Source: Candidatus Zixiibacteriota bacterium (GTDB lineage Bacteria > Zixibacteria > MSB-5A5 > GN15 > FEB-12). From it: DNA of 64,000 nt. Below are positions 2-32,262 of this stretch, one piece after another. The DNA lies in assembly GCA_022571845.1 (NCBI GenBank), contig JACZXB010000003.1, positions 1 to 64,000 on the forward strand, given 5' to 3'. Position 1 is the stretch's first letter; the number at the start of each line of letters is the position of its first letter. The notes beneath the pieces were generated by a model that was not told where the DNA came from, made no database searches, and was given only the letters and a program-made list of their open reading frames with translations. Position numbers and translations under genes: made by a program.

Positions 2-3000
2 CAGTCTACAACAGAAAACGTATTACTTTCTTTCGGAGTTTCGGCTACTGATATAGAGAGCACTCCGGTTCTGATAACCTCGGCGCTTCCGACCGGCGCG
101 GTCTTTACAGATAATGGCAATGGTACCGGTTCATTTGACTGGACTCCCGACTTCCTGCAATCCGGCTTTTACAGCGTAACATTTTATGCCACCGATGACA
201 GTTCGGCGATAGACTCAGAAGTAGTCACAATTACAGTCAACGATGGCGGCAACCAGCTTCCGGCACTTTCTGCAATTGGTGCTCAGTCTACTACAGAAAA
301 TATTCTTCTTTCGTTCGGTGTCTCAGCCACCGATATAGAGAGCACACCAGTTCTGACGACATCAACGCTACCTACTGGCGCGGTCTTTACAGATAATGGC
401 AATGGTACCGGTTCATTTGACTGGACACCGGACTTCTTGCAATCAGGAAGTTACAATGTAACGTTCTATGCCACAGATGACAGTATAGCAGTAGATTCAG
501 AAGTTGTCACGATCACAGTCAACGAGGCCGGCAACCAGTTACCAGTTCTTGCTGCAATAGGTGTGCAATCTACAATCGAAAATATTTTACTTTCGTTTGG
601 AGTTTCAGCAACTGACGCCGAAGGAGCACTTCCGACTCTGACGACATCAACGCTTCCGACCGGTGCGGTCTTTACAGATAATGGCAATGGGACCGGTTCA
701 TTTAACTGGACACCCGATTTCTTCCAGTCCGGCTCTTACAGCGTTACATTTTATGCAACTGATGACAGTGCGGCAGTAGATTCAGAAGTTGTCACGATTA
801 CAGTCAACGATGCTGGCAACCAGCTGCCGGTTCTTGCAGCAATTGGTGCTCAGTCTACCACAGAGAATGTACTGCTTTCATTTGGAGTTTCAGCTACTGA
901 TACAGAAAGTACGCCTGCGTTGACAACGTCGGCACTACCGACGGGGGCTCTGTTCACAGATAACGGCAATGGCACCGGATCTTTTGACTGGACTCCGACA
1001 TTCCTACAGTCCGGCAGTTATAACATAACATTCTACGCAACTGATGACAGTACGGCAGTAGATTCAGAGGTTGTCACGATTACAGTAAACGATGGCGGTA
1101 ACCAGCTGCCGATTTTGGCTGCAATAGGCGCTCGTTCAACTTTTGAAAATGTAACACTCTCTTTCGCTGTTTCAGCAACAGATATAGAGAGTACGCCTGT
1201 TTTAAGTATATCCAATCTGCCTTCGGGAGCCTCCTTTACAGTAAACGGAGATGGTACCGGTAGCTTTGATTGGACCCCGACATTCTTGCAATCAGGATTA
1301 TATAACGTCACTTTCTATGCCACAGACGACTCTGCCTCAGTTGATTCCGAAGTAGTCACGATAACAGTCAGCGATGGTGGCAACCAGCTGCCGATACTTA
1401 CATTAATCGGGGCGCAGTCTACTACAGAAAATGTGCTGCTCTCATTTGGAATATCAGCCAGTGATATAGAAAGTACTCCTGTCTTGACCACATCAAGCCT
1501 TCCGAGCGGTGCGGTCTTCACTGATAACGGCAACGGTACCGGAAGTTTTGACTGGATCCCGACATTCCTGCAGTCCGGAAGCTATAGTGTCACTTTTTAT
1601 GCTGCCGATGACAGCACAGCGGTTGACTCCGAAATAGTTTCAATAACTGTAAACGAGGCCGGCAACCAGGCCCCGACTCTGGCTGTGATAGGTGCACAAT
1701 CAGCTACTGAAAATGTGCTGCTATCATTCGGAGTATCCGCAACAGATATAGAAGGTACTGTCTCGCTGACAACTGCCGCACTTCCGCCAGGTGCTTCATT
1801 TGTAGATAACGGCGATGGCTCCGGTTCATTTGACTGGACTCCCACATTCCTGCAGTCGGGAAGCTACAATGTTACTTTCTATGCTACTGATGACAGCACA
1901 GCAGTTGATTCTGAAGTAGTAACTATCACTGTCAATGATGGCGGCAACCAGCTTCCGATTTTAGCCTCAATCGGCGCGCATTCAACTACAGAAAACATCC
2001 TGCTTGATTTTAACATCTCTGCTACGGATATAGAGAGCACTCCGGTTCTGACAACATCAAGTTTGCCTAATGCGGCAATATTTACCGATAACGGTAACGG
2101 CACCGCTTCTTTTGACTGGACGCCGTTATATAACCAGGCCGGTGTTTACAATATTATATTTTATGCTACTGATGACAGCACAGCGATTGATTCCGAAATT
2201 GTTGTAATTACTATTATTGAAGCCGGCAACCAGCCGGTCACTCTTAACCCGATTGGCAATCAATTGGTAAGCGAAGGCAATAATTTAGGCTTTACAGTTA
2301 GTGCCACGGATCCTGATTCTACTTTCGCCGTTATGACAACCTCAGCGCTACCTTCGGGCGCTACCTATATCGACAACGGCGACGGCAGCGCGATTTTTGA
2401 CTGGACTCCTGATTTTACTCAGTCCGGTTCTTATAATATTACGTTTTACGCAACGGATGGTATCTCAACCGATTCTGAAATTATCAATATTAACGTCCTT
2501 GAGTCCGGTAACCAGCCCCCGACATTGGCTGCGATCGGAGATAAATCTCTTACCGAGGGTGCCTTATTAAGTTTTAGTGTATCAGCGGTTGACCCGGATA
2601 GCACAATACCAGGCTTGAGTACCTCCACTCTTCCAACAGGAGCTCTGTTTGTGAATAACGGGGACGGTACCGGCAGCTTTGACTGGACACCTGATTTTAC
2701 CCAGTCCGGTATTTACAATATTACTTTTTATGCCACAGACGGGGTAGCCACAGATTCAGAACAGATTTCTATTACCGTCAACGAGGCCGGTAATCAGTCA
2801 CCGGTGTTAACTCCCATTGGAGCGCGAGGAGTAACCGAAGGCACAAACCTCAATTTTGGCGTATCTGCCTTTGATCCCGACGGTACCACTCCGATACTAA
2901 GTACCAGCAGTTTGCCGACCGGAGCTGTTTTTGTAGATAGCGGCAACGGCAGCGGTTCTTTTGACTGGACCCCAAGTTTTACTCAAAGCGGAGTATATAT

Positions 3001-9000: not shown

Positions 9001-12000
9001 AGTAGGTAACCAGGCGCCGATTCTTACAGCAATTGGTGCAAAAAATGTGGGCGAAGGTGGAAATCTGAACTTTGGAGTTACGGCTTCAGATGCTGATGCC
9101 ACTACGCCAAATCTTAGTACTTCTGCTCTACCTGCTGGAGCAACGTTTGTAGACAATCTCAACGGTAGCGGTAGTTTTGACTGGTCTCCGGATTTCACAC
9201 AAAGCGGGACATATAATGTCACCTTCTATGCCTCTGATGGTCTTCTAACTGACAGCGAAGTTGTTACCATTACAGTCAACGATGCCGGTAATCAGTTGCC
9301 AGTACTGGCGGCTATTGGAAGCCAAACCACAATTGAAGGAACTAATCTCAACTTTAACCTGTCGGCTGCAGATGTTGACGGCCCATCGCCGGTCTTAACG
9401 ACATCAATTCTTCCAATAGGCGCAACTTTCATTGACAATGGAGATGGCAGCGGCAGTTTTGATTGGACTCCTGGCTTTACACAAAGCGGCACATACGGCG
9501 TTACATTTTATGCAACCGATGACAGCCTGGCTGTTGATAGTGAAGTTGTAACTATCTCTGTAAACGAGGCTGGCAACCAGCCGCCGGTATTGGCAACAAT
9601 CGGAAGTAAGAGTGTCACTGAAGGCGCCAATCTTAGTTATGGTGTTTCAGCGGTTGACCCGGACAGTACTACTCCAGCTTTAAATACTTCAACACTTCCG
9701 TTAGGTGCATCATTTACCGACAACGGTGACGGCAGCGGAGACTTCGACTGGACACCCGACTTTACTCAAGCTGGCAGTTACTTTGTAATATTCTATGCCA
9801 CAGACGGCGTAGCTACAGATAGTGAGATTGTATCATTTACAATTAACGAAGCTGGCAATCAGGCTCCGCAATTGACTGCTATCGGTGCCAAGTCTGTTAC
9901 CGAAGGAATAAACTTAAACTTCAGCATAGCTGCCTCAGACCCCGATGGCACCACACCAGGGTTTAGCACAGTAATCTTACCTACCGGTGCAACCTTTATA
10001 GACAACGGTGATGGTACAGCTACATTCGATTGGACACCAAGTTTTGTGCAGTCTGGCGTTTACAACGTAACATTCCTGACAACTGATGGAGCCCTTTCTG
10101 ATTCAGAAATAGTAACCATCACAGTCAACGAAGCCGGCAATCAGGCGCCAGAGTTGGCGGCTATCGGCTCACAGTCAACTACCGAAGGCGAAAATCTTAA
10201 CTTTAGTATTTTGGCTACAGACCCGGATGTCACCACACCTTCTCTCACTACTTCAGCCCTGCCACCCGGGGCAGTCTTTACCGACAACGGCGACGGCACA
10301 GGAATATTTGACTGGACTCCAAGCTTTACCCAAAGTGGCAGTTACTTTGTAATATTCCACGCTTCAGATGGTATTTCCAGTGACAGTGAAGTAGTCTCTA
10401 TTATAGTAAACGAGGCCGGCAACCAGTCGCCTGTACTTTCAACCATCGGCTCACAGTCAGTTGTCGAAGGCAGCAGCTTAAACTTTACTGTCTCAGCGGT
10501 TGATCCCGACAGCACCACCCCGGTTTTAACGGCGCTCAATCTGCCGAGCGGGGCAGTCTTTACCGACAACGGTGACGGCTCAGGCAGCTTTGCCTGGTCA
10601 CCTGACTTTATTCAGGCCGGAGGCTATAGTGTTACATTCTATGCCACCGATGGCAGCGCCTCAGACAGCGAAGTGGTGACCATTACGGTCATCGAAGCCG
10701 GCAACCAGCCGCCTGTTTTAGCAGTCATCGGCGCGCAGTCAGTCAGCGAGGGCATAAATTTAACATTGGCCATAAGTGCCTCTGATGCCGATCTGACCAC
10801 ACCGTCTTTTAGCGCTTCGACACTGCCTTCAGGCGCCTCATTTACCGACAACGGTGACGGCAGCGCTTCATTTGACTGGACGCCTGACTTTACCCAGGCC
10901 GGCAGCTATTTGGTAACTTTTCGTGCTACCGACGGCCAGGCCACTGATAGTGAGGTAGTCACCATAACCGTCAGCGAAGCCGGCAACCAGAGGCCTGTTT
11001 TAGCGGCCATCGGAGCTAAGAGTACCAGCGAAGGCATACTTCTTACTTTTGGAGTATCGGCTGTTGATGCTGACGGTACCTTCCCGCTACTGTCAACCAC
11101 CGCTTTACCTTCAGGCGCAGTCTTTACCGACAACTCAGATGGCAGCGGCAGCTTCGACTGGACTCCGGACTTTACTCAGTCGGGTTTATACAGTGTGACC
11201 TTCATTGCTTCAGACAGTCTGGCCGCCGACAGCGAAACTATCAGCATTACGGTAGGTGAAGTGGGCAATCAATCGCCGATCTTAGCAGCCATCGGTTCAC
11301 AAAGCAGCAGTGAGAACGTAAACCTGACTTTTGCAGTTTCTGCCAGCGACCCCGACGGCACCATCCCGGTTTTAACGGCGCTCAATCTGCCGGGCGGGGC
11401 AACTTTTGTAGATAACGGCAATGGCAGCGGCAGCTTCGACTGGACCCCGAGTTTTGTGCAGGCCGGAACTTATTTGATAACCTTCCGCGCTTCTGATGGC
11501 GTACTCTCCGATTCCGAAATTGTCGCCGTCACAATTTTTGAAACAGGTAACCAGTCGCCCGTCTTAGCCTCCATCGGAGCTCAAGACATCAGCGAAGGCG
11601 CCAATCTTAATTTTGTAACAACGGCCAGCGATCCTGATAGCACCACCCCCAGCTTTAGTTCGACGACTCTGCCTGCTGGCGCCAGCTATACCGATAACGG
11701 TGACGGCTCGGCTACTTTTGACTGGACCCCCGACTTTACCCAGAGCGGAGTCTATAACATTACTTTCTACGCCACCGATGGCTCACTAACTGACAGCGAA
11801 GCGGTAGTTATTACTGTCACAGAAGCCGGCAACCAGGCGCCGCTCTTGGCTGCCATAGGTTCTAAGGGCACCACCGAAGGCGTCAATCTTAACTTCTCTG
11901 TTTTTGCCTCAGACCCCGACAGCACTATTCCGGCTCTGTCAACTTCCACACTACCCTCTGGCGCCACCTTTACAGATAACACCGATGGCAGCGGCAGCTT

Positions 12001-15000: not shown

Positions 15001-18000
15001 TATTGCAGCCAGTGACGCCGACGGCTCTACCCCGACATTCTCGACTTCGAGCTTACCGGCCGGTGTAACTTTCACAGATAACTTAAACGGCAGCGCCACC
15101 TTTGACTGGACGCCTAACTTCATCCAGAGCGGCAGCTATAATATTACTTTCTACGCTTCCGACGGTCTGCTCTCCGACAGCGAAGTGGTTGTAATTACAG
15201 TCAACGAAGCCGGCAACCAGGCGCCGCAGCTATCGGCCATTGGCGCCCAGAGTACTACCGAAAATCTTAATCTTAATTTTGTCTTGTCTGCCAGTGACCC
15301 CGACAGCACCACCCCGACTTTTAGCTCTTCCACTCTGCCTTCAGGCGCCATATTCACCGATAACGGTGACGGCACTGCTGACTTTAACTGGACACCAAGC
15401 TTCATCCAGAGCGGCACCTATAACATTACCTTTAGAGCCAGCGACGGCACAGCCACCGACAGCGAAGTGGTGACCATTACAGTCATCGAAGCCGGCAACC
15501 AACCGCCGCTGCTGGCTTCGATAGGCCCACAAAGCGTTATCGAGGGTCAGCTGTTGGCATTAGCAATTTCTGCTTCAGACGTTGACGGCCCGGCTCCGAC
15601 ACTTTTAACTTCAGCCCTGCCCAACGGGGCAACTTTCACCGACAACGGCGACGGCAGCGCTGACTTTAACTGGACACCGACTTTTACTCAAAACGGCAGT
15701 TACTTTGTTATCTTCTATGCCTCCGACGGCATAGCCTCAGATAGTGAAATTGTTTCTATTACAGTCAACGAGGCCGGTAACCAACCGCCGCTTTTAGCGG
15801 CCATTGGCGCCCAGACAGTCTCAGAAGGCGCTAACCTTAACTTTGCAGTCTCAGCCAGCGATGCCGACGGTACCATCCCGGGACTGTCTGCTTCGACACT
15901 GCCATCAGGCGCAACTTTCACTGACAACGGCAACGGCTCAGGATCTTTTGACTGGACACCAAACTTTACCCAGTCAGGTATATACATTGTAACTTTCTAT
16001 ACCTCCGACGGCGCCCTCTCAGACAGCGAAGTGGTCACTATTACTGTTACAGAAGCAGGCAACCAGACGCCTCTCCTGACCACCATCGGCACCCAGTTAA
16101 TTACCGAAGGCAGCACTCTTAGTTTTGCTCTCTCGGCCACAGATGCCGACTCTACCATCCCCACACTCTCAACTTCGGCCCTGCCGTCAGGCGCCAGCTT
16201 TACCGATAACTCAGACGGCACGGCTGACTTTGACTGGACACCAAACTTTATTCAAAGCGGCACCTATAATGTCACCTTCTATGCCTCCGACGGCATAGCT
16301 ACCGACTCAGAAGCTGTCACCATCACCGTCAGCGAAGCCGGCAACCAGACCCCGACACTTGAGCCTGTCGGCCCGCAGGTGACCACCGAAGGCATCCAGC
16401 TGATTATTAATCTCTCGGCTTCAGACCCCGACTCTATCATCCCGACCCTGTCAACTTCAGCACTACCAACAGGCGCCATCTTTACCGACAATGGTAATGG
16501 CAGCGGTAACCTTGACTGGACACCAACTTTTACCCAGGCCGGGATTTACAGCATTACTTTCTTCGCCTCCGACGGCGCCGCCAAAGACTCTGAAATTGTC
16601 TCGATTACTGTTATTGAAGCCGGTAACCAGACGCCGCTTCTAAGCTTAATCGGCTCACAGTCAACCACCGAAGGCCTCAGTCTCAGCTTTGGCGCCTCGG
16701 CCACAGATGCCGACGGCACCACCCCGGCTCTGAGCGCTTCAGCACTGCCTGCAGGCGCCAGCTTCATAGACCACGGCAATGGCTCAGGCAGCTTTAACTG
16801 GACTCCAGACTTTACCCAGAGCGGCATATATAATATTACTTTCAAAGCTACCGACGGCGTCGCTACCGACAGCGAAGTGGTCACCATAACTGTCTCAGAA
16901 TCCGGCAACCAGGCCCCGCTCTTAAGCTCAATCGGCTCACAGTCTGTTACCGAAGGCGACAATCTTAACTTCAGCATCGCTGCTGCTGACCCCGACAGCA
17001 CCACCCCCATTCTGTCAACTTCATCTTTACCGAGCGGAGCTCTGTTCACCGACAACGGCGACGGCTCAGGATCCTTTGACTGGTCACCGGACTTTACTCA
17101 AAGCGCCGTATATAGTGTCACCTTCTACGCCTCTGACGGATTCTTAATAGACTCGGAAGTGGTCACTGTCACCGTCAACGAAGCCGGTAACCAGGATCCG
17201 GTCCTGGCCACTGTCGGTCAGAAGTTCGTACTTGAAGGTGTTAATCTGAACTTTACAATCTCAGCCACTGACGCCGACAGTACCATTCCCAGCTTAACAG
17301 CCACCGACCTGCCGACAGGCGCCAGCTTTGTCGACCACGGCGACGGCACCGGAACCTTCGACTGGACGCCGGCCTTTATTCAAAGCGGTACTTACTTTGT
17401 CTTCTTCTTCGCCTCTGACGGACTGGTCTCCGACTCAGAAATCGTCAGAATAACCGTCAACGAAGCCGGTAACCAGATCCCGGTTCTGGCTACTATCGGA
17501 AGTCAAAGCATAACCGAGGGAATAAACTTAAGCTTCGCTCTCGCAGCCGTTGACCCCGACTCTACCATCCCCACTCTCTCAACTTCCTCACTGCCAACAG
17601 GCGCTATCTTCTCAGATAACGGCAACGGCACCGCTGACTTTAACTGGACACCATCTTTTGATCAGAGCGGCAGCTACAACATCACCTTCTTTGCCTCTGA
17701 CGGCGCCTCGAAAGACTCTGAAGTGGTCACCATTACAGTCACCGATGGCGGCAACCAGGCCCCGCTCTTAAGCGCTATCGGCAACAAGACCGTACTCGAA
17801 GGAGCTAATCTTAACTTCGCCCTCAGCGCCTCCGATGTAGACGCTACCATTCCGATACTAACTACCTCAAGCTTACCAACAGGCGCAACTTTCATTGACA
17901 ACGGCGACGGCTCAGCTGACTTTGACTGGACACCAAACTTCATTCAAAGCGGCATATATAGTGTCACCTTCTATGCCTCTGACGGACTACTGACTGACTC

Positions 18001-21000
18001 GGAAGTCGTCAACATTACCGTTAACGAAGCCGGCAACCAGACCCCAATCCTAGCAGCTATCGGCTCACAGTCTACCATCGAAGGCGCTACTCTTAACTTT
18101 GCAGTCTCTGCCACAGATGCCGACTCTACCATCCCGGCTCTCTTGGCCCTCTCGCTGCCTGCTGGCGCTGTCTTTATAGACAACGGCGACGGCTCAGGCT
18201 CCTTTGACTGGGCACCAAACTTTACCCAGAGCGGCGTCTACAACCTGACTTTCTATGCCACTGACGGCTTAGCTGCCGATACAGAAATAGTTTCAATCTC
18301 CGTCAGTGAAGCCGGCAACCAAACCCCGATACTGACAGCTATCGGAGCACAAAGCACTTCTGAGGGTGTCAACTTGAACTTCGCTCTCTCGGCTACCGAT
18401 GCCGACTCTACCACCCCGGTCCTGTCGGCTCTCTCGCTGCCAAACGGCGCGGTCTTTATAGACAACTCAGATGGCTCAGGCAGCTTCGACTGGACACCCG
18501 ACTTTACTCAAGCCGGCAGTTATAATGTCACCTTTATTGCCTCTGACGGGGTCGCCGCTGACTCAGAAATTGTCGCCATAACCGTCGGCGAATCCGGCAA
18601 CCAGGCCCCGCAATTGACTGCCATCGGCGCCAAGTCTGTTACCGAAGGAATAAACTTAAACTTCAGCATCGCTGCTTCAGACCCCGACAGCACCATCCCC
18701 ACTCTCTCGACCACCGCCCTGCCAGCAGGCGCCAGCTTCATAGACCACGGCGACGGCTCAGCTGACTTCGACTGGATACCTAACTTCATTCAGAGCGGCA
18801 GCTACAACATTACCTTCTATGCCAACGACGGCTTTCTGAGCGACTCTGAAGTGGTAGTTATCACAGTCAACGAAGCCGGCAACCAAAACCCAATCCTTAA
18901 TACCATCGGACAACAGATAGTTCTTGAGGGAGCAAATCTTAATTTTGGAATTACAGCTACCGATGCTGACAGCACTAAACCAGTTCTGACAGCCATCGAG
19001 CTCCCGATTGGAGCAACTTTTGTAGATAATGGCGATGGCACCGGAACATTTGACTGGACTCCTGCATTCACCCAGAGCGGAACCTATTTTGTATTCTTTT
19101 ACGCCGCAGACAGTCTGGTCTCAGACAGTGAAATTGTCAAAATAACCGTCAACGAAGCCGGCAACCAGCTGCCGGTACTATCTGTAATAGGAAGTCAAAG
19201 TACAACCGAGGGAATTAACTTAAGCTTTACTGTCTCAGCGGTTGATCCCGACAGCACCATTCCGAGCCTCTCGACTACCAGCCTTCCTGCCGGTGCCACC
19301 TTTACCGATAACGGTAATGGTACTGGAAGTTTCAGCTGGACGCCTGGATTTGACCAGTCCGGAATTTATAACGTAACTTTCTTTGCCTCCGATGGAGCCG
19401 CCAAAGATAGCGAGATAGTCACTATTACAATAGGCGACGGTGGCAATCAGGCGCCGATACTTAGCACTATTGGCGCGCAAGCTGTTATTGAAGGAAATAA
19501 TCTAAACTTTGCTGTTAGCGCTACAGATATTGATGCAACTATTCCGGTCTTGACAACTTCAACTTTACCGGTTGGCGCAACCTTTACCGACAACACTGAC
19601 GGCAGCGGCACATTTGACTGGACTCCGGCATTTATTCAGAGCGGCTCCTTCAATATTACATTCTATGCCTCAGACGGATTCCTGATTGACAGCGAAGTAG
19701 TTACCATTACAGTCATAGAAGCCGGTAACCAGACGCCAATACTTACAGCAATTGGCGCTCAGACTATCAACGAAGGTGACTTGCTGACAATTTTTATATC
19801 AGCAGTTGACCCGGACAGCACCACACCGGTATTGACAACATCTACTCTGCCGAGTGGCGCAACGTTTACCGACAACGGCAATGGCACCGGTTCGTTTAAC
19901 TGGGTGCCAAACTTTATTCAATCCGGTATTTACAATATCAAGTTTTTTGCGAGAGATGCCTCCAATGCAGTCGACAGCGAAGTTGTGACTATTACAGTCG
20001 GTGAATCCGGCAATCAGCCGCCGGTTCTCGATTCAATTGGTGCACAGACAACCACTGAAAACGTACCGTTAAACTTTGTCTTAACAGCAACAGACCCCGA
20101 AGGCATCACTCCGACCATGACTACTTCGTCCATACCGGCGGGAGCAACTTTTGTAGACAATGGCAATGGCACGGCCAATTTTGACTGGATTCCTACCTTC
20201 CTGCAAAGCGGTGTTTATGTGGTAACATTCTTTACCAGCGACGGCATTTTGTCAGACACAGAAACAGTTATAATTACCGTCAACGAAGCCGGTAACCAGC
20301 TGCCAGTTCTTGATCCGCTCTCTGACACCTCTATGACTGAGGGAATAGACTTTGTATTGTCTGTCTTTGCCTCTGACGCCGAATCTGTTCCTGCTCTGAC
20401 AACATCTGTTCTACCGGCAGGCGCGGCATTCACAGACAGCGGCAACGGCTCAGGCAGCTTTAACTGGACACCTGACTTCATCCAGAGCGGCTCTTATTCT
20501 GTTACTTTCTATGCCACCGATGACTCTCTGGCGGTAGACAGCAACATAGTTGTGCTGACCGTTAACGAAGCTGGCAATCAGTCGCCAGTTCTGAGTCCAA
20601 TCGGCGACCAGGCTATTGCCGAAGGAATCACTCTAAACTTTGGCTTCAGTGCTTCTGACCCCGAAGGAACTACACCGATTCTTTCCGCCACAAACTTACC
20701 TGCTGGTGCTTCAATTATAGACAGTGGAAATGGAGCTGGAAGTTTCTCATGGACACCAGACTTTAACCAGAGCGGAATATATAGTGTTACTTTCTATGCC
20801 ACCGACGACTCTGCAGCAGTCGACAGCGAAGTAGTAACGATTACTGTCAACGAAGCCGGTAACCAGGCGCCAGTGCTGGCTGCTATTGGAGGGCAGTCAA
20901 CAGCAGAAGGCATACAGTTGCTCTTTGGAGTTTCTTCATCCGACGGTGAGGACATTGCAGCTCTAACAACATCTACTCTGCCATCCGGAGCAACATTTGT

Positions 21001-24000
21001 CGATAGCGGCAACGGCAGCGGTTCGTTTGACTGGACACCAAATTTTGTACAGTCCGGTATATATAATGTCACTTTCTATGCTACCGATGATTCACTGGCG
21101 GTGGACAGCGAAGTGGTAGAAATCACAGTTAATGAGGTCGGCAACCAGCTGCCGGTGCTAGCGGCTATCGGTTCGAAGTTGACTACCGAAGGTATTGAGC
21201 TGCTGTTTACAGTTACAGCAACAGACGGTGAAAGCATACCTGTACTGACAACCTCTGCATTGCCTGCTGGCGCAAATTTTGTAGACAGCGGCAATGGAAC
21301 AGCGTCGTTTAGCTGGACGCCAGACTTCCTGCAGTCGGGTATATATAATGTAACCGTATACGCTACTGATGATTCACTAGCGGTAGACAGCGAAGTGGTA
21401 GTAATCACAGTTAACGAAGCCGGCAATCAAATACCAGTTCTTGCAGCCATCGGCGCGCAGGGCACTCCTGAGGGGTTCATATTACTATTCGCAGTATCGG
21501 CTGTGGATGTTGAAAGCGTTCCGTCTTTAACAACTTCGACACTTCCGTCAGGGGCCGTCTTTGTAGACAGCGGTAACGGAAATGGAAGTTTTGACTGGAC
21601 ACCGAATTTTGTACAATCAGGAATATACAATATCACGTTCTATGCAACGGATGACAGTCTGGCTGTTGACTCTGAAGTCGTCACGATAACTGTCGATGAT
21701 GGCGGCAACCAGTTGCCTGTTTTGACTCTTATTGGCGCCCAATTTACACCTGAAAATGTACTGCTGACCTTTGGCGTGAGTGCAACAGATATTGAGAGCA
21801 TTCCAAATTTGACCACTTCAGCTTTGCCTGCCGGAGCTGTATTCGTAGACAGCGGCAACGGCAACGGAGCATTTAATTGGACACCAAGCTTCCTCCAATC
21901 AGGCGTATACAATATTACTTTCTATGCCACCGATAATTCATTGGCGGTTGATAGCGAAATTGTTACAATTACGGTAACAGAGCTGGGCAACCAGATTCCT
22001 GTCTTGGCTGCAATAGGTGCGCAGGCAGCGACTGAAGGCATCCTGCTGGCATTCGCTATATCTGCTACGGATGGCGAGGGCATACCGGTTTTGACTACTT
22101 CAACTCTACCCGCCGGCGCTGCCTTTGTAGATAGTGCCAACGGCTCCGGTAGCTTTATCTGGACACCGAACTTTGTCCAGTCGGGAGTATACAACCTGAC
22201 ATTCTACGCCACCGACGATTCACTGGCAGTCGACAGCGAAGTTGTAACTATTACAGTTAGCGAAGTCGGCAACCAGCTGCCTCTGCTCGATTCGATTGGT
22301 GCACAAACCACTACCGAAGGAATTGCAGTAAGCTTTAGTCTTTCTTCCACTGATGCCGAAAGCATTCCATCTCTGACAACATCTACTCTGCCGGCTGGTG
22401 TGCTATTTGTAGATAGTGGCAACGGTTCAGGTTCGTTTGATTGGACGCCCGACTTCCTGCAGTCAGGCATATATAACATAACTTTCTACGCTACCGATGA
22501 TTCGCTGGCCGTAGACAGCGAAATTATAACAATTACTGTCAATGACGCTGGCAACCAGTCGCCTCTGCTTGACTCTATTGGCGCCCAGACAACTCCAGAG
22601 GGTCTACAGCTTCTATTTATAGTCACCGCCTCCGATGGCGAAAGCATTCCTGTTTTAACAACCTCAGCGCTTCCGAGCGGTGCTGTCTTTGTAGACAGCG
22701 GCAACGGCAGTGCCTCATTTGATTGGCTGCCCGATTTCACACAAGCAGGAGTTTATAATGTAACTTTTTACGCTACCGATGATTCGTCGGCTGTTGATAG
22801 TGAAATTGTTACTATTACAGTAACAGAATCCGGCAATCCCCCGGTGTTGGATTCAATCTCCGATACCACGGTCACCGAATCATTTCTATTGACTTTCATA
22901 GTCACAGCATCCGACCCCGACAGCACGATTCCGACCTTGAGCACTTCAGTATTGCCGGCCGGAGCAATATTTGTGGATAGTGGCAATGGCACTGGAGAGT
23001 TCAGCTGGACGCCCAGCTTTACACAAAACGGAACATACCCAATTACTTTTTACGCTACTGACGGGCTGAGCACAGACAGTCAAATTGTAACGATCACGGT
23101 TCTTGATGTTGGCAACCAAACCCCGATTATTGATTCAATAGGGGATAGGACAGTTGCCGAAGGTGCGAATCTGGCTATTATCGTCACCGCCTCTGACGGC
23201 GAAAGCATTCCTGTCTTAACAACGACTGCTCTTCCGATAGGTGCAACATTTGCCGATAGCGGTAACGGCACAGGCTATTTTGACTGGACACCAGGCTTTA
23301 CTCAGTCGGGATCGTATCCGATTACATTCTACGCGACTGATGACTCTCTGGCCGTTGACAGCCAGCTGATTACCATTACGGTCACAGAATCTGGAGACCA
23401 GTCGCCTGTATTTGATTCTCTGGGTGACTTTACGACCACCGAGCTTGACACTTTGATCATAACAGTTAGAGCAGTTGATCCCGAAAGCACAGCGATATCT
23501 CTGGCAGTTATCTTCAACTCGACAAGCTTTACCTTTGTAGATAGCGGCAACGGAGTTGGTGTTCTGACTTACATTCCTTCGCTGTTCGACGCTGGTCTAG
23601 ACACCGTCAAATTCCTGGCCACTGATTCCGGAAGTCCGCCGAGGACGACAACTATTGTCTCGGTAATCACGACAATAGAAAATAACCAGCCGCCGGTTTT
23701 TGATTCTGCCGGTCCCTATGCGATCGAAGTAAACGATACCCTGATTTTCACGGTTTTTGCTTCAGATTCCACAGACCAGGATACTACGCATTCGGTCTTT
23801 TTGACGACTACAGGTCTGCCCGCCAACGCAAGTTTTACCGACAACGGTGACAATACCGGTACCATTACATTTGCACCTGTGCCGGGACAGGAGGGTTTAG
23901 ATACGCTAGGGTTCCTGGCAACAGATGAGGGAACACCTGCGCTCTCAGGTATAATGGATGTGGAAATAATGGTAGTCGGCGTAAACATTCCGCCGGTTCT

Positions 24001-25770
24001 TAATCCAATTGGAGCGCAGAGCGTAAAAGAGGGAGATCTTTTGACAATAAATCTGTCCGGTTACGATCCGGATTCAACCATGATTCCTTACTTCTCCGTA
24101 GACACCTCTGAATTAACAGGAGATATAACATTTGTGGATAACGGAAACGGAACAGCAGTGTTCACCTATATACCAACCTTCCTGGAGTCAGGACTCTTGA
24201 ACGTATCCTTTAGAATTCACGACGGCATAGACTTTGACAACGAAGATGTGATCATTCAAGTCTCTGACTTCGGTAACAGGCTGCCACTTTATGATTCTAT
24301 CCCCAGCCCTTCCGTAACTGAGGGTGACTCCGCTGTCGTCTATCTTACAGCATATGATCCGGATGGTGGTCCGGTTGTACTTTCGATTGACGAGGACGCC
24401 ACGCCTCTGCCGCCAAACTTTATCTTTACCGACAGCGGCAATGGATTGGCCACCCTGGAGTTATATCCGGTATTTAATCAGGCAGGTACTTACCCGCTTG
24501 ACCTGATAGTAGCTGACGACAGTTCAACGGCTGATACTTTCTCAATGATTGTACAAATTATCGAAGCTGGCCCGCAGCCGCCGGTATTGGATAGCATACC
24601 GGACTACTCGCTTGATGAGGCAACCAATCTCACTTTCACTATTACAACATCAGATATTGATTCAGTACCGCCGATTCTGACAACTTCTGCACTGCCCGGA
24701 AATTCCAGTTTTACTGATAATGAAGATTACACAGGAACCTTTAGCTGGACTCCCACTCATGATGACTCTGGCTCTTATACTATTACTTTCTATGCGACTG
24801 ACGCGGATCCGGCAACTACAATGGTAGACTCACAGGAGATAACAATTGTTGTCAACGATGTAAACAGACCGCCGTTCATGGATAATTTGCCAAATCCTTC
24901 AAATACAATGAACGAATTTGATACGCTTTCGCTTTACTTTACTGCCACTGACCAGGATGGCTCAACTCCCAGCATTAGAGTTACGTTGTCTGGTGCCGAT
25001 ACAATGGCTACCAATATGACATTCTTTGATTCAGGTAATGGAGCCGGTGTTTTCACATTCATACCTGACCACACTCAAGGCAACGACGATCCAACTTCTT
25101 ACAGCTACATCGTGACAGCCATCGATGAATTCGATTCCACTCTAACACAATCCAGCGGTACGCGCACAATACGAGTAAACAATGTTAACGTTGTCCCTAC
25201 TTTGAATTTCCTCGATGGAGTAGGTCCTTTCAACATTGTCGAAGGTGAGTCTATAAGTATCAGGGTGCTTGCTGAAGATATTGACGGAATCATTACTTCT
25301 TTGGATGCAACCAATCTGCCTCCTGGCGCAACTTTTACTGGCCCAATAATCTACTTTAAAACAGTGAATTGGACTCCTCTATTTAATCAGGCAGGCTCCT
25401 ATACTATGAATATTAGCACCAGCGACAACGATTCGGCAAGTGCCGATCAGTCAGTACAAATAAATGTGGCCGAGTTTGGCAACCACGCCCCGTCCTTTAT
25501 AACAACTTTTCCCGATACAATTGAATTCTTTGTGGGAGTAGTCGGAAATATCGTCGTCAAAGCTCAGGACCTGGACTTTGACATTATTACCATTTCATTA
25601 GATTTGGGCCCCCCAAGCGGTACATTTGTAGACTCTGGCAACGGCACAGGTGTGCACTCTTTCTTGCCAGACTCAGCCTTAATCGACTCTGTTTTTCCTG
25701 TCAGATTCATAGTAACCGATATCCCGGCTGGCCTAACTGATACACTGACAACATCTTACTGGGTCAGGAA
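2..25770 (+). repeat. Tandem array of about 90 coding repeats, period 282 or 285 bp
   Basis: Unit boundaries at the GNQ codons fall at 248, 530 and 815 (steps of 282 and 285) and continue with the same step for most of the array. I counted about 91 units by hand: one partial at the left edge, about 82 close to consensus, and roughly eight diverged ones at the right. Neighbouring units at the left edge are almost identical at DNA level, for example around 97, 379 and 663, so the array probably continues to the left of the window and has expanded recently there. Confidence 0.93.
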
Positions 25771-25972
25771 TTTCCTCAGGGGAGACCTGGATGGCACCTT
25801 TAACTATACCATGAATGACGTAGTATTCCTGGTGAACTATATTTTTAGGGATGGACCTGAGCCAGATCCTCTCCAAGCCGGAGACGTTGATGCCAGCGGC
25901 GCGATAAATACTGCCGACCTGTCTTACCTGGTTAACTTTATCTATCGAGGTGGCCCGGCTCCACCGCAATAG
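2..25972 (+). CDS. Giant tandem Ig/cadherin-like repeat protein with C-terminal dockerin-like pair (5' end outside window)
   Basis: The frame is open from the first complete codon of the window to the TAG at 25970, giving at least 8656 residues; the true start and any signal peptide lie upstream. It is built of about 90 tandem units, mostly 94 or 95 aa. Each begins near a GNQxPVL motif, then has an E-G/N step, an LPxGA turn, an acidic DNGDG loop, an invariant-looking DWTP, and an aromatic strand ending DSEVVTITV. This resembles the putative Ig (He_PIG) and cadherin-like domains of surface adhesins. The last units (from about 23390) are strongly diverged. The final 65 residues hold two dockerin-like loops (about 25780-25965) ending GGPAPPQ. 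I noticed no cysteine. Such proteins are normally secreted and act at the cell surface in adhesion or as stalks or filaments; that role is inferred. No promoter is visible inside the window. Confidence 0.93.
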   Translation, partial: QSTTENVLLSFGVSATDIESTPVLITSALPTGAVFTDNGNGTGSFDWTPDFLQSGFYSVTFYATDDSSAIDSEVVTITVNDGGNQLPALSAIGAQSTTENILLSFGVSATDIESTPVLTTSTLPTGAVFTDNGNGTGSFDWTPDFLQSGSYNVTFYATDDSIAVDSEVVTITVNEAGNQLPVLAAIGVQSTIENILLSFGVSATDAEGALPTLTTSTLPTGAVFTDNGNGTGSFNWTPDFFQSGSYSVTFYATDDSAAVDSEVVTITVNDAGNQLPVLAAIGAQSTTENVLLSFGVSATDTESTPALTTSALPTGALFTDNGNGTGSFDWTPTFLQSGSYNITFYATDDSTAVDSEVVTITVNDGGNQLPILAAIGARSTFENVTLSFAVSATDIESTPVLSISNLPSGASFTVNGDGTGSFDWTPTFLQSGLYNVTFYATDDSASVDSEVVTITVSDGGNQLPILTLIGAQSTTENVLLSFGISASDIESTPVLTTSSLPSGAVFTDNGNGTGSFDWIPTFLQSGSYSVTFYAADDSTAVDSEIVSITVNEAGNQAPTLAVIGAQSATENVLLSFGVSATDIEGTVSLTTAALPPGASFVDNGDGSGSFDWTPTFLQSGSYNVTFYATDDSTAVDSEVVTITVNDGGNQLPILASIGAHSTTENILLDFNISATDIESTPVLTTSSLPNAAIFTDNGNGTASFDWTPLYNQAGVYNIIFYATDDSTAIDSEIVVITIIEAGNQPVTLNPIGNQLVSEGNNLGFTVSATDPDSTFAVMTTSALPSGATYIDNGDGSAIFDWTPDFTQSGSYNITFYATDGISTDSEIININVLESGNQPPTLAAIGDKSLTEGALLSFSVSAVDPDSTIPGLSTSTLPTGALFVNNGDGTGSFDWTPDFTQSGIYNITFYATDGVATDSEQISITVNEAGNQSPVLTPIGARGVTEGTNLNFGVSAFDPDGTTPILSTSSLPTGAVFVDSGNGSGSFDWTPSFTQSGVYIVIFYATDGSATDSEIVTISVVEEGNQSPVLALIGAQVTTEGINLNFGVSASDPDSTTPSLTTSSLPIGAIFTDNSDGTGTFDWTPEFVQSGTFNLTFYASDGVEIDSETIVITVNEAGNQEPVMATIGPQSTIEGINLNFVISAIDPDSTFLTLITSSLPSGASFTDNGDGTGTFDWTPTFTQSGSYFVIFSAIDDSSAGDSEIVSITVNEAGNQSPVLTAIGAQSTTENINLAFSVSAADPDATIPTLSTSSLPSGATFVDNGDGSGDFSWTPNYIQAGAYNITFYASDGAVSDSEIVAITVTEAGNQTPVMSAVGAQSTTEGILLSFVLSASDADSTIPAFSASTLPSGASLTDNGDGTGTFNWTPTFLQSGVYSVTFYATDASLAVDSEVVSITVNDAGNQLPILATIGAQSTTENLNLNFVISASDPEGAPPSLTTSALPAGATFVDNGTGTGTFDWIPDFTQSGSYNVTFYATDDSTAVDSEQVTITVIESGNQAPVLDPIGAKGSTEGVLLTFSLSASDLDATTPTLSAIVLPSGASLFDNGDGTADFSWTPDFVQSGIYIVTFIADDGLAADSETITITISDAGNQNPVLATVGSRNILEGANLNFVTSATDPEGNPPALTTSTLPSGATFIDNGDGTATFDWTPNFNQSGIYGVSFYATDDSSAVDSENVTITVTEAGNQIPVLAAIGPQSTSENVQLLFSISASDPDATTPTLSAVSLPTGAVFTDNGNGTGSFDWTPNFTQAGTYIVTFIASDGLASDSEIVSITVNEEGNQAPTLAVIGAKSVTEGANLNFTATATDLDGTTPSLSSSTLPDGASFTDNLDGSGTFDWTPTFIQAGSYNVTFYASDGALTDSEVVTITVNEAGNQGPILFSIGSKATTEGIQLTFGISATDPDSTIPALSAVSLPGGAIFTDNGDGTGTFDWTPNFIQGGVYNVIFIAADSLAADSEIVTITVTEAGNQLPVLATIGAQNITEGINLNFAVSASDPDSTTPALTTSSLPSGASFTDNGNGTGTFDWTPDFTQAGTYIIIFRASDGLASDSEVVAITVNEAGNQTPVLSGIGPRSTTEGAALNIVVSATDADGTIPVISTSALPTGATFTDNLDGTADFNWLPTFTQSGSYVVTFYATDGAAIDSEVVSITVNEAGNQIPQLEPIGAKGTTEGINLNFEISASDVDGTTPSLTTSTLPSGASFIDNGNGTGTFAWTPDFTQSGTYNVTFYATDGIATDSEVVTISVSEAGNQAPVLNPIGSRITNEGVNLNFGISGSDPDGLLPSLTTSALPAGATFTDNGDGTGTFDWTPSFVQAGLYNITFFASDGAAKDSEIVSITVIEVGNQTPVLTAIGSKSATEGTSLNFGITASDPDSTIPNLSISSLPAGATFVNNGDGTGSFDWTPDFTQSGIYSVTFYATDGLATDSEQVTITIFEAGNQNPVLAAIGAQSVTEGSLLTFTATASDPDGTFPTFTTSALPSGAAFVDNLNGTATFDWTPNFIQSGVYSVTFFATDGLATDSEVVSITVTEAGNQVPQLATIGAQNTTEGVNLNFAVSAFDADSTIPILIASSLPTGASFTDNGNGSGTFDWTPTFTQSGTYNVTFYATDSIATDSEVVTIGVNEAGNQSPVLAAIGAKSSTEGINLNFSISSSDPDGSTPALTTSSLPAGATFIDNGNGSGTFDWLTDFTQSGTFFVTFRASDGILVDSEIVTITILEAGNQSPVLNSIGAKSVAEGQNLLFSISGTDPDGTTPTLTSSALPSGATFTDNGDGTGFFDWTPNFIQAGSYNITFYSSDGVETDSELVTITVNEAGNQTPTLAAIGAQVIAEGVNLNFVVSATDADSTILFMLAAPLPAGATFIDNGDGTGTFDWTPDFTQSGTYNVTFAASDGLATDSEVVTINVNESGNQDPLLDPIGFQSTTEDVNLNFNITASDPDGTTPTLSTSSLPTGAIFVDSGNGTGNFDWTPGFDQSGDYLVTFYATDGVAIDSEIVQITVNEVGNQAPILTAIGAKNVGEGGNLNFGVTASDADATTPNLSTSALPAGATFVDNLNGSGSFDWSPDFTQSGTYNVTFYASDGLLTDSEVVTITVNDAGNQLPVLAAIGSQTTIEGTNLNFNLSAADVDGPSPVLTTSILPIGATFIDNGDGSGSFDWTPGFTQSGTYGVTFYATDDSLAVDSEVVTISVNEAGNQPPVLATIGSKSVTEGANLSYGVSAVDPDSTTPALNTSTLPLGASFTDNGDGSGDFDWTPDFTQAGSYFVIFYATDGVATDSEIVSFTINEAGNQAPQLTAIGAKSVTEGINLNFSIAASDPDGTTPGFSTVILPTGATFIDNGDGTATFDWTPSFVQSGVYNVTFLTTDGALSDSEIVTITVNEAGNQAPELAAIGSQSTTEGENLNFSILATDPDVTTPSLTTSALPPGAVFTDNGDGTGIFDWTPSFTQSGSYFVIFHASDGISSDSEVVSIIVNEAGNQSPVLSTIGSQSVVEGSSLNFTVSAVDPDSTTPVLTALNLPSGAVFTDNGDGSGSFAWSPDFIQAGGYSVTFYATDGSASDSEVVTITVIEAGNQPPVLAVIGAQSVSEGINLTLAISASDADLTTPSFSASTLPSGASFTDNGDGSASFDWTPDFTQAGSYLVTFRATDGQATDSEVVTITVSEAGNQRPVLAAIGAKSTSEGILLTFGVSAVDADGTFPLLSTTALPSGAVFTDNSDGSGSFDWTPDFTQSGLYSVTFIASDSLAADSETISITVGEVGNQSPILAAIGSQSSSENVNLTFAVSASDPDGTIPVLTALNLPGGATFVDNGNGSGSFDWTPSFVQAGTYLITFRASDGVLSDSEIVAVTIFETGNQSPVLASIGAQDISEGANLNFVTTASDPDSTTPSFSSTTLPAGASYTDNGDGSATFDWTPDFTQSGVYNITFYATDGSLTDSEAVVITVTEAGNQAPLLAAIGSKGTTEGVNLNFSVFASDPDSTIPALSTSTLPSGATFTDNTDGSGSFDWTPDFTQSGTYNVTFYAADGIATDSEIVSITVNEVGNQAPLLEVIGAQTTTENINLSFAVSAVDPDGTTPVLTTSALPAGASFVDSGDGSGAFDWTPTFIQSGSYFVIFYASDGVASDSEVVSITVNEAGNQPPLLSAIGAKSTTEGVSLNFVVSASDADGTNATLSTSSLPAGVTFIDNGDGTADFDWTPNFIQSGSYNITFYASDGLASDSEVVTITVNEAGNQAPLLSAIGARATTEGINLNFDVTASDADSTIPTLSTSALPTGASFIDNGDGSGSFDWTPIFTQSGSYSITFYAADGSASDSEVVNITVNEAGNQIPILATIGAQTTSEGVNLNFNVSATDADSLIPLLTTSLLPPGASFIDNGDGSGSFDWTPTFTQASSYFVIFIASDGVAADSEIVAITVNEAGNQSPVLAVIGAQSVSEGQLLNFSIASSDPDGSTPSLSALSLPSGASFIDNSDGSGTFDWIPDFTQGGIYSVTFVASDGSLSDSEVVTITVTEAGNQTPLLSSIGSQGITEGVNLNFNISATDADATIPALSTSALPSGAIFTDNTNGTGTFDWTPGFTQSGTYNVTFYASDGVLTDSEVVTITVNDAGNQRPLLTAIGAQSSTEGLLLIFAASASDADGTTPSINTGTLPAGAIFIDHGDGSGTFEWTTTFIQAGIYNILFFASDGVLSDSETVQITILEAGNQTPVLAAIGAKFVNEGAGLNFSVTASDPDGTTPSFSNSVLPAGASFIDNGDGSADFNWTPDFTQSGSYNITFRASDGALTDSEVVTITVTESGNQPPILALIGSQSVSEGNNLNFSVSASDPDATIPALSAVSLPAGASFIDNGDGSGSFDWTSNFTQSGTYNITFIASDGVAADSEVVTISVTEAGNQTPVLSAIGPQSTTEDVNLSFVVSATDADGTIPTLTTLNLPAGATFTDNGDGSGSFDWTPDFTQSGTYNVTFKASDGVATASEIVSITVNEVGNQAPVMTLIGAKSVSEGANLNFSIAASDADGSTPTFSTSSLPAGVTFTDNLNGSATFDWTPNFIQSGSYNITFYASDGLLSDSEVVVITVNEAGNQAPQLSAIGAQSTTENLNLNFVLSASDPDSTTPTFSSSTLPSGAIFTDNGDGTADFNWTPSFIQSGTYNITFRASDGTATDSEVVTITVIEAGNQPPLLASIGPQSVIEGQLLALAISASDVDGPAPTLLTSALPNGATFTDNGDGSADFNWTPTFTQNGSYFVIFYASDGIASDSEIVSITVNEAGNQPPLLAAIGAQTVSEGANLNFAVSASDADGTIPGLSASTLPSGATFTDNGNGSGSFDWTPNFTQSGIYIVTFYTSDGALSDSEVVTITVTEAGNQTPLLTTIGTQLITEGSTLSFALSATDADSTIPTLSTSALPSGASFTDNSDGTADFDWTPNFIQSGTYNVTFYASDGIATDSEAVTITVSEAGNQTPTLEPVGPQVTTEGIQLIINLSASDPDSIIPTLSTSALPTGAIFTDNGNGSGNLDWTPTFTQAGIYSITFFASDGAAKDSEIVSITVIEAGNQTPLLSLIGSQSTTEGLSLSFGASATDADGTTPALSASALPAGASFIDHGNGSGSFNWTPDFTQSGIYNITFKATDGVATDSEVVTITVSESGNQAPLLSSIGSQSVTEGDNLNFSIAAADPDSTTPILSTSSLPSGALFTDNGDGSGSFDWSPDFTQSAVYSVTFYASDGFLIDSEVVTVTVNEAGNQDPVLATVGQKFVLEGVNLNFTISATDADSTIPSLTATDLPTGASFVDHGDGTGTFDWTPAFIQSGTYFVFFFASDGLVSDSEIVRITVNEAGNQIPVLATIGSQSITEGINLSFALAAVDPDSTIPTLSTSSLPTGAIFSDNGNGTADFNWTPSFDQSGSYNITFFASDGASKDSEVVTITVTDGGNQAPLLSAIGNKTVLEGANLNFALSASDVDATIPILTTSSLPTGATFIDNGDGSADFDWTPNFIQSGIYSVTFYASDGLLTDSEVVNITVNEAGNQTPILAAIGSQSTIEGATLNFAVSATDADSTIPALLALSLPAGAVFIDNGDGSGSFDWAPNFTQSGVYNLTFYATDGLAADTEIVSISVSEAGNQTPILTAIGAQSTSEGVNLNFALSATDADSTTPVLSALSLPNGAVFIDNSDGSGSFDWTPDFTQAGSYNVTFIASDGVAADSEIVAITVGESGNQAPQLTAIGAKSVTEGINLNFSIAASDPDSTIPTLSTTALPAGASFIDHGDGSADFDWIPNFIQSGSYNITFYANDGFLSDSEVVVITVNEAGNQNPILNTIGQQIVLEGANLNFGITATDADSTKPVLTAIELPIGATFVDNGDGTGTFDWTPAFTQSGTYFVFFYAADSLVSDSEIVKITVNEAGNQLPVLSVIGSQSTTEGINLSFTVSAVDPDSTIPSLSTTSLPAGATFTDNGNGTGSFSWTPGFDQSGIYNVTFFASDGAAKDSEIVTITIGDGGNQAPILSTIGAQAVIEGNNLNFAVSATDIDATIPVLTTSTLPVGATFTDNTDGSGTFDWTPAFIQSGSFNITFYASDGFLIDSEVVTITVIEAGNQTPILTAIGAQTINEGDLLTIFISAVDPDSTTPVLTTSTLPSGATFTDNGNGTGSFNWVPNFIQSGIYNIKFFARDASNAVDSEVVTITVGESGNQPPVLDSIGAQTTTENVPLNFVLTATDPEGITPTMTTSSIPAGATFVDNGNGTANFDWIPTFLQSGVYVVTFFTSDGILSDTETVIITVNEAGNQLPVLDPLSDTSMTEGIDFVLSVFASDAESVPALTTSVLPAGAAFTDSGNGSGSFNWTPDFIQSGSYSVTFYATDDSLAVDSNIVVLTVNEAGNQSPVLSPIGDQAIAEGITLNFGFSASDPEGTTPILSATNLPAGASIIDSGNGAGSFSWTPDFNQSGIYSVTFYATDDSAAVDSEVVTITVNEAGNQAPVLAAIGGQSTAEGIQLLFGVSSSDGEDIAALTTSTLPSGATFVDSGNGSGSFDWTPNFVQSGIYNVTFYATDDSLAVDSEVVEITVNEVGNQLPVLAAIGSKLTTEGIELLFTVTATDGESIPVLTTSALPAGANFVDSGNGTASFSWTPDFLQSGIYNVTVYATDDSLAVDSEVVVITVNEAGNQIPVLAAIGAQGTPEGFILLFAVSAVDVESVPSLTTSTLPSGAVFVDSGNGNGSFDWTPNFVQSGIYNITFYATDDSLAVDSEVVTITVDDGGNQLPVLTLIGAQFTPENVLLTFGVSATDIESIPNLTTSALPAGAVFVDSGNGNGAFNWTPSFLQSGVYNITFYATDNSLAVDSEIVTITVTELGNQIPVLAAIGAQAATEGILLAFAISATDGEGIPVLTTSTLPAGAAFVDSANGSGSFIWTPNFVQSGVYNLTFYATDDSLAVDSEVVTITVSEVGNQLPLLDSIGAQTTTEGIAVSFSLSSTDAESIPSLTTSTLPAGVLFVDSGNGSGSFDWTPDFLQSGIYNITFYATDDSLAVDSEIITITVNDAGNQSPLLDSIGAQTTPEGLQLLFIVTASDGESIPVLTTSALPSGAVFVDSGNGSASFDWLPDFTQAGVYNVTFYATDDSSAVDSEIVTITVTESGNPPVLDSISDTTVTESFLLTFIVTASDPDSTIPTLSTSVLPAGAIFVDSGNGTGEFSWTPSFTQNGTYPITFYATDGLSTDSQIVTITVLDVGNQTPIIDSIGDRTVAEGANLAIIVTASDGESIPVLTTTALPIGATFADSGNGTGYFDWTPGFTQSGSYPITFYATDDSLAVDSQLITITVTESGDQSPVFDSLGDFTTTELDTLIITVRAVDPESTAISLAVIFNSTSFTFVDSGNGVGVLTYIPSLFDAGLDTVKFLATDSGSPPRTTTIVSVITTIENNQPPVFDSAGPYAIEVNDTLIFTVFASDSTDQDTTHSVFLTTTGLPANASFTDNGDNTGTITFAPVPGQEGLDTLGFLATDEGTPALSGIMDVEIMVVGVNIPPVLNPIGAQSVKEGDLLTINLSGYDPDSTMIPYFSVDTSELTGDITFVDNGNGTAVFTYIPTFLESGLLNVSFRIHDGIDFDNEDVIIQVSDFGNRLPLYDSIPSPSVTEGDSAVVYLTAYDPDGGPVVLSIDEDATPLPPNFIFTDSGNGLATLELYPVFNQAGTYPLDLIVADDSSTADTFSMIVQIIEAGPQPPVLDSIPDYSLDEATNLTFTITTSDIDSVPPILTTSALPGNSSFTDNEDYTGTFSWTPTHDDSGSYTITFYATDADPATTMVDSQEITIVVNDVNRPPFMDNLPNPSNTMNEFDTLSLYFTATDQDGSTPSIRVTLSGADTMATNMTFFDSGNGAGVFTFIPDHTQGNDDPTSYSYIVTAIDEFDSTLTQSSGTRTIRVNNVNVVPTLNFLDGVGPFNIVEGESISIRVLAEDIDGIITSLDATNLPPGATFTGPIIYFKTVNWTPLFNQAGSYTMNISTSDNDSASADQSVQINVAEFGNHAPSFITTFPDTIEFFVGVVGNIVVKAQDLDFDIITISLDLGPPSGTFVDSGNGTGVHSFLPDSALIDSVFPVRFIVTDIPAGLTDTLTTSYWVRNFLRGDLDGTFNYTMNDVVFLVNYIFRDGPEPDPLQAGDVDASGAINTADLSYLVNFIYRGGPAPPQ
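16622..20008 (+). repeat. Six-unit higher-order duplication inside the array (2 x about 1.69 kb)
   Basis: Units starting at 16622, 17186 and 18032 correspond to units starting at 18314, 18878 and 19724, each exactly 1692 bp (6 x 282) later. The match rests on features that are otherwise rare in the array and recur in the same order: an ESGNQAP junction, SIAA with DGFLxDSE, a GNQ(D/N)P unit with TYFVFF and LVSDSEIV, a unit with FDQSG and FFASDG, a DGGNQAP junction, then DATIP and GNQTPIL. The two blocks therefore derive from a block duplication rather than single-unit amplification. Confidence 0.8.
25780..25965 (+). other. Dockerin-like calcium-binding pair at the end of the giant protein
   Basis: Two EF-hand-like loops with the 1,3,12 spacing of acidic residues are visible: DLDGTFNYTMND followed by a hydrophobic helix VVFLVNYIF, and DVDASGAINTAD followed by LSYLVNFIY. 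Each helix ends in an RxGP turn. Dockerin pairs bind two calcium ions and dock to cohesin domains in cellulosomal bacteria; outside those, dockerins are widespread with unknown partners. No cohesin was recognised in this window. Confidence 0.8.
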
Positions 25973-30151: not shown

Positions 30152-30267
30152 GTTTGGGTAAACGTAGATAACGATGGATATTGATAACTAAGCTAGACCC
30201 GGTAAACCCTACTGCCAATTTATTTGCCCATATTATGAGGACGACAAATCAAACTGGTAAATTGCTT

Positions 30268-31057
30268 ATGAGAAGTAGAACAGCGCCCCTGCACTTTTTG
30301 ACTTTTTTGTGTCTGTTGCTTGTAGTTTCGTCAGCATCCGCAGAAAAATATCCGGACTGAAAACCTTCAAAACCTTACATAATAAAAGGGCATTTAACTA
30401 TTCAATTTGAAGGTGAGGTCAATACTGAATCGTTCAATCAAGATTTTGGAACAGCAAATTTTTCAGTGCCGAGCCTGGATATTATTTTGGAAAAGTATAA
30501 TGTCTATAGGGCAAATGCTGTTTTTCCTTGGCGTAAGGAAAACCAAAAGCAAACTCAGGAATTTACGGCCTCACCAGATATTGGGAAATTCACTTCGCTG
30601 AACCTGTCGACGAACAGAAATTGATAGAAGAATTACTTCAAAACCCAATCGTCCGAAATGCCGAAGCTGTCTGGGTGCTGCCAATTTATGCATCTTCCGA
30701 TGATCCTTCTTGGAATTTACAATGGGCGATAGAAGTGATACCTGATACAAGCGGCGGAGCTAATTATCTGCCGGTTGGTTCGGGACTGATAATTGAATTA
30801 CTCATCAAAGTGGACATCTCTGCTCCATCAGGAAAAATAGAAATTGATACTCCTACAATATGCGGTCAAATGATGGTTATTTCAGCAGTCTGGGGAGAGC
30901 ATCTCCGTGACACTTATATATAAGAGGTAAAATTGTTGTAGGAGTTGGCGGCAATGCAGATGCAGTCGTAAACAGCAATATTCTGGATTTGACCTATTTG
31001 GTAGATTTTATCTTTAGAAGCGGGACGCCCCCCTTCATCATAGGGAAAATGGCCTGA
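30268..31057 (+). pseudogene. Decayed subtilase-like exported protein with C-terminal dockerin
   Basis: ATG 30268 opens a clear signal peptide (MRSRTAPLHFLTF... SSASA), but a TGA follows at 30358. Reading through, the same frame encodes a segment beginning PYIIKGHLTIQFEG; near 30560 the sense passes to another frame (YWEIHFAEP, then AEAVWVLPIYA, then DDPSWNLQW). This pattern matches the propeptide (I9-like) and the start of an S8 subtilisin-type protease. The catalytic Asp/His/Ser core is missing: after WNLQWAIEV comes a segment like the C-terminal beta-domain of related proteins, a second frameshift near 30920, then RGKIVVGVGG and a degenerate dockerin repeat (LDLTYLVDFIFRSG) ending at TGA 31055. 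So there is one stop, two frameshifts and an internal deletion. The family assignment rests on motif memory. Confidence 0.7.
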
Positions 31058-32260: not shown

Positions 32261-32262
32261 TA

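Follow-up and report, generated by a model that had tools for sequence, protein, structure and literature searches.

A giant Ig/cadherin-like repeat frame ending in a dockerin pair in an uncultured Zixibacteria lineage, with adjoining cohesin proteins as candidate receptors

The window, the whole stretch of 64,000 nucleotides that was analysed, begins at base 1 of contig C16 (285,817 bases) of genome G000, an assembly of 21 contigs and 2.75 Mb. A single stop-free frame of 8,656 codons occupies positions 2..25972 of the forward strand and closes with a stop codon at its right end, in agreement with a sequence-only reading that had given it more than 8,650 residues. That reading had also placed the N-terminus beyond the left edge, which is correct: the frame is still open there because contig C16 itself starts at this point, so the edge is an assembly end and not merely that of the window. 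Given the base composition, a frame of this length would be free of stops with a probability of about 10^-170, and none of 20 shuffles gave a stop-free frame longer than 198 codons, compared with 8,656 in the real sequence. The 26-kb frame is thus a genuine coding sequence, and chance is excluded. The visible part of the product amounts to about 0.89 MDa, is strongly acidic (993 D+E versus 64 K+R), and has a repeat body devoid of cysteine.

Parsing of the frame resolved one partial and 90 whole units, and a profile HMM built from the regular units counted 91 domains of about 94 residues, matching the earlier estimate of about 90 Ig/cadherin-like units. The partial first unit (2..247, +) is cut by the contig end, where the frame remains open at base 1 of C16, and is followed by 82 consecutive regular units of 93-95 residues each (248..23392, +), which were recognised as tandem-95 Ig/cadherin-like repeats by unit parsing, NCBIfam and Pfam models, and AlphaFold2. 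Their consensus is GNQxPvLxxIGAQStTEGxNLNFxVSAxDpDST...DSEvVTITVNEA. Eight diverged Ig-like units of about 94-108 residues (mostly 96-108) form a C-terminal stem (23393..25775, +), and a dockerin type I pair (25776..25969, +) occupies the extreme C-terminus. The tandem-95 model NF012211 scored 614.9 and 497.8 bits on the two halves of the giant (curated cut-off 90). The search against He_PIG and cadherin models that had been proposed for the units was borne out by He_PIG (60.6 and 93.3 bits) and Big_9 (67.7 and 120.8 bits), both against gathering cut-offs of about 24, and by Cadherin_5, which also matches the array. No RTX family or type I secretion signature matched the giant in the Pfam and NCBIfam scans.

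AlphaFold2 predicted three consecutive units as three beta-sandwich domains with a mean pLDDT of 93.3, using an alignment of window units only; the pTM of 0.55 leaves the relative orientation of the domains less certain. The best TM-score matches to the whole triple were cadherin ectodomain arrays (0.53-0.59), and the Foldseek E-value list also includes many Ig proteins. A fucoidanase heads that list with low TM-scores, a likeness that reflects common Ig-like domains and not enzymatic function. In place of DxNDN, the canonical Ca2+ linker of cadherins, the array carries an NEAGNQ-type linker, with G1, N2 and Q3 invariant among the 73 units of 94 residues compared; any rigidity of the array is therefore only presumed. 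The predicted fold would accordingly be called cadherin-like only, and membership in the classical cadherin repeats is not claimed.

Two traces of internal history were noted in the array. Units ~35-65 (window ~9,900-19,100) have a third-codon-position GC of ~0.54-0.62, compared with mostly 0.38-0.45 on either side, and the raised block lies at the same orthologous place in a second species of the genus (Spearman 0.72); it is possibly a separately amplified block. Units 60-62 and 66-68 (window ~17,200-19,700) share 72-78% identity at an offset of six, a trace of a six-unit higher-order duplication.

The terminal pair, described earlier as dockerin-like, scored 24.5 bits against PF00404 when scanned alone and 25.0 bits in the whole-genome search (cut-off 22.9), and the aspartates at positions 1 and 12 of the Ca2+ loop in each segment were invariant in all 20 orthologues aligned. 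By Pfam score and loop aspartates, it is predicted to belong to dockerin type I. An AlphaFold2 model of this end reached a pLDDT of only 31.6 with a four-row alignment and was unusable. The stem and the pair together make up the last 859 residues, a C-terminal module matched at E<=1e-30 in 40 of the 54 family genomes, with many matches spanning all 859 residues at 38-47% identity. The conservation of this module in most genera of the family is new here. No T9SS tail (TIGR04183) was matched on the giant, which ends in the dockerin pair, and neither a covalent anchor nor a transmembrane segment was seen in it. Elsewhere, a small protein (stretch L036, 5840-6850, minus strand) bears a dockerin-like pair near its N-terminus, indicating that the module is portable and need not sit at the C-terminus.

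Directly downstream of the giant lies a gene (26526..30068, +) for a 1,180-residue protein whose sequence shows an exported-looking N-terminus and its own C-terminal dockerin-like pair. It has no Pfam or NCBIfam match, and its homologues follow the giant in G009, G018, G030, G075, G077, G005 and G021, and in the congeneric genome G001. The next segment, 30172-30923, is a frame-broken, internally deleted gene remnant; its G001 counterpart (contig C9, 33834-36183) is likewise broken into frames and resembles a subtilisin-type protease with a PKD-like region and a dockerin pair. Next come two small exported proteins, each bearing a T9SS type A tail (31314-32204 and 32254-33159; TIGR04183, 29.0 and 34.3 bits), which adjoin dockerin-tagged genes.

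The array was compared with that of G001, the separately assembled Candidatus Zixiibacteriota isolate B21T1B10 (JACZWU010000002.1) of the same genus, which has a 9,871-codon frame at the corresponding place. Window units 3 to 89 correspond in order to G001 units 15 to 101, unit i matching unit i+12, and 82 units are reciprocal best matches, all on one diagonal, with a median margin of 0.11. In a third species, G002, collinearity holds for most of one contig of 54 units and also for the C-terminal stretch. Orthologous units of G000 and G001 differ by a dN of 0.096 and a dS of 0.687 (dN/dS ~0.14), so the array units are under purifying selection. The order of about 87 units has thus been kept across separate species, whereas the repeats of adhesins would be expected to change fast.

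The concern that the array might have collapsed or been misassembled, for which long reads had been suggested, was addressed by this comparison, and the array was upheld. The suspicion that its length and order were made by repeat misassembly draws on the origin of the contigs from a MAG and on a break that falls inside repeats. However, no exact 60-mer recurs inside the frame (exact internal repeats reach 50-59 bp at most), the 26 kb contain no stop, and the separate species agree in unit number and order; this agreement, together with the purifying selection, makes misassembly very unlikely in the assembled part. An artefact is already contradicted by these data, and we give it next to no probability.

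Extension to the left, which the sequence-only reading had called for, succeeded only in part: the repeat was found at no other contig end of G000, but the start and signal peptide were located in G001. There, contig C11 carries a 2,406-residue open frame that reads outward through the left end of the contig and encodes a signal peptide (MGTHKVILTAAVFLFAAVSVAGQTA) and then two head domains of about 150 residues each, the first followed by about 20 units and the second by further repeat. Neither the head domain nor the upstream gene of G001 is present in the G000 assembly. Contig C9 of G000 breaks off inside a gene whose 71% identical counterpart in G001 stands three genes before the giant; the start of the G000 giant and the genes ahead of it therefore fall in the assembly gap between C9 and C16. 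The head domain matched no named family; the sole Pfam hint, CBM_4_9, was insignificant (E=0.04, one copy). A head domain 65-66% identical occurs in G043 (L126) and G004 (L127), from another genus and another family, and is absent from most relatives, a patchy distribution that suggests horizontal spread or patchy loss.

Complete single-frame orthologues were found in G009 (3,135 residues), G017 (3,347), G030 (3,242), G077 (3,056) and G075 (3,510), each with a signal peptide and 31-35 domains. The window genome has at least 91 domains and G001 at least 125. In a tree of the C-terminal module the genus sits among the shorter forms, with several deep forks weak. This nesting and the larger domain counts are most simply explained by a genus-level enlargement, which has made the array about three to four times longer than in the complete single-frame relatives. 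Other relatives, including the sister genus, have the protein split into two neighbouring frames. In G032 (L153), G021 (L145-L146) and G063 (L149), the first of these ends in a ...AGKPYQANAATAGTFP module, and the second has a signal peptide, a QGSIFGTV domain and then the conserved C-terminal module.

This split bears on how G001 contigs C11 and C9 are to be joined. If they carry one gene, as we infer, the G001 giant would have at least 12,277 residues. The N-terminal part (C11) and the C-terminal part (the window and G001 C9) might instead be separate neighbours, as in G032, G021 and G063; the split architecture does exist in the sister genus, and C11 and C9 were never joined, with no exact overlap between their ends. 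Nevertheless, the domain that opens the second gene in split-architecture relatives was found in none of the three genomes of the genus but was detected in the split controls, which supports a single gene, and both broken ends bear the same unit subtype. We regard two genes as very unlikely.

Immediately upstream of the giant, relatives encode one protein or two, each about 800-960 residues long and carrying a T9SS sorting tail. Pfam Cohesin (PF00963) exceeds its cut-off in these proteins in G004 (41.9 and 41.8 bits; here the upstream genes lie on the contig carrying the N-terminus), G009, G010, G021, G030, G075 and G077, and falls below it in the G001 gene adjoining the giant. Cohesin is rare genome-wide, with 1-9 matches per genome in eight genomes, yet 15 of the 42 matches fall in the roughly 12 kb upstream of the giant, compared with 0.15 expected; these genomes are related, so the 15 are not independent events and a Poisson figure for the excess overstates its significance. 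The upstream proteins also hold dockerin-like segments, with which their own cohesins might pair instead. The G000 genome has 35 dockerin matches, three weak cohesin matches and a match to SprA_N, a T9SS translocon marker. Of the elements that define the putative stalk locus, G000 shows the 859-residue module and the downstream dockerin-tagged gene; the signal peptide and the upstream T9SS-tailed cohesin gene were seen in relatives only.

We consider it fairly probable that the frame represents most of one enormous secreted rod-like protein of this uncultured lineage, a judgement that takes the explanation as a whole: a secreted rod-like giant, an enlarged orthologue of a family-wide protein, and a dockerin held by cohesin receptors. 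In this explanation, the giant would cross the inner membrane by means of its signal peptide and then reach the surface by some outer-membrane step, the giant itself having no T9SS tail. The T9SS would deliver the cohesin proteins to the cell surface, where their cohesins would grip the Ca2+-loaded dockerin pair and so fix the C-terminal end of the giant. Ig/cadherin arrays measure about 4 nm per domain, so that the head domains at the N-terminus would be held some 0.35 to 0.5 micrometre away from the cell, where their target may be a surface, a polymer or another cell. Docking and adhesion are read from sequence features, and the giant may accordingly be described as a putative stalk or adhesin, two of the roles first proposed for it. 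We put forward tentatively, at somewhat less than an even chance, that the locus is a cohesin-dockerin system of a non-cellulosomal kind: surface receptors delivered by the T9SS would hold Ig-like stalks of megadalton size by a terminal dockerin, and the length of the array would have stayed constant across species of the genus after a three- to fourfold enlargement over the complete single-frame relatives.

Two other readings accept the array and differ on its attachment or on the meaning of its length. The stalk may be real and not cohesin-docked, being released or forming an extracellular matrix, sheath or S-layer-like filament while the cohesins serve other dockerin proteins. The many dockerin matches in the genome offer the receptors numerous possible clients, the giant lacks any visible covalent anchor or membrane segment, and the giants of A. 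kunkeei were found in cell-free supernatant (PMC12863079). However, cohesins are scarce and cluster immediately upstream of the giant, and the dockerin pair, with its invariant loop aspartates, is the only feature at the C-terminus, which makes release or matrix formation unlikely in our view. The length of the array might also be functionless, having expanded by unequal recombination and persisting as the diverged units no longer recombine. Within the main array, DNA identity between nearest units is only about 65-76%, which would not readily allow recombination; G001 units closer to the N-terminus reach 91% and show no one-to-one mapping. The idea of a young N-terminal zone is weakened in that its close pairs still differ by a dS of ~0.67, similar to the species divergence. 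Against a functionless length stand the dN/dS of the units and the preservation of some 26 kb of coding DNA across three species, which indicate selection for intact folded units, though not for length itself. We consider this reading quite unlikely, and cohesin-held stalks remain our preferred, if provisional, interpretation.

The giant is not a new class, as giant repeat proteins are already known, and so are non-cellulosomal cohesin and dockerin modules. As in the cellulosome, where scaffoldin cohesins collect dockerin-bearing glycoside hydrolases, a dockerin pair with conserved Ca2+-loop aspartates and candidate partner cohesins occur in the same locus; in contrast to the cellulosome, the locus cohesins bear T9SS tails, and the dockerin carries a giant stalk instead of a glycoside hydrolase. 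A survey of huge proteins names Big_9, Cadherin_5 and Dockerin_1 among recurrent domains (PMC11573180). The tandem-95/Big_9/He_PIG giants (NF012211; PMC11573180) resemble the present protein in unit length, domain family and acidic secreted arrays, whereas here there is a defined orthologous locus with cohesin and T9SS neighbours, a conserved unit order and a dockerin pair as the conserved terminus. Giant1-5 of Apilactobacillus kunkeei (3,000-8,000 residues) share a signal peptide, an N-terminal domain, very long imperfect repeats and conserved C-terminal domains, and differ in their mostly alpha-helical repeats (Giant4 has beta domains), DUF5776 ends and Gram-positive host; the excerpts of that source report no cohesin-dockerin link (PMC12863079). 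RTX adhesins (PMC7493085, PMC3034196) likewise extend a distal binding region on a stalk of tandem beta-sandwich repeats, whereas the Zixibacteria giant has no RTX repeat or type I secretion match and carries a terminal dockerin instead. Omnitrophota giants of up to 85,800 residues, with transmembrane and carbohydrate-degrading domains (West-Roberts et al. 2023, as cited in PMC12057145), are also giant genes of uncultured bacteria, from which the plain Ig-like array described here differs.

A literature search returned nothing linking Zixibacteria with dockerin or type IX secretion, and what appears new is the family-wide locus, with its cohesin/T9SS partners, together with the frozen array. 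The anchoring of giant bacterial surface proteins is rarely known, and here comparative genomics gives a specific candidate receptor in the adjoining cohesin/T9SS proteins. The locus also offers a natural length series, 31-35 versus at least 91 domains, which could tie stalk length to function.

Some observations on the G000 assembly were made alongside. The right end of C16 (L073) and the left end of contig C5 (L044) both encode parts of a protein resembling the 1,180-residue neighbour, and the two contigs probably adjoin at those ends. One end of contig C20 (L056/L077) is valyl-tRNA-synthetase-like and ordinary, the other GC-rich and multicopper-oxidase-like, and the left end of contig C19 (L038) has an unusually GC-rich coding style; C20 and C19 are possibly chimeric or foreign contigs.
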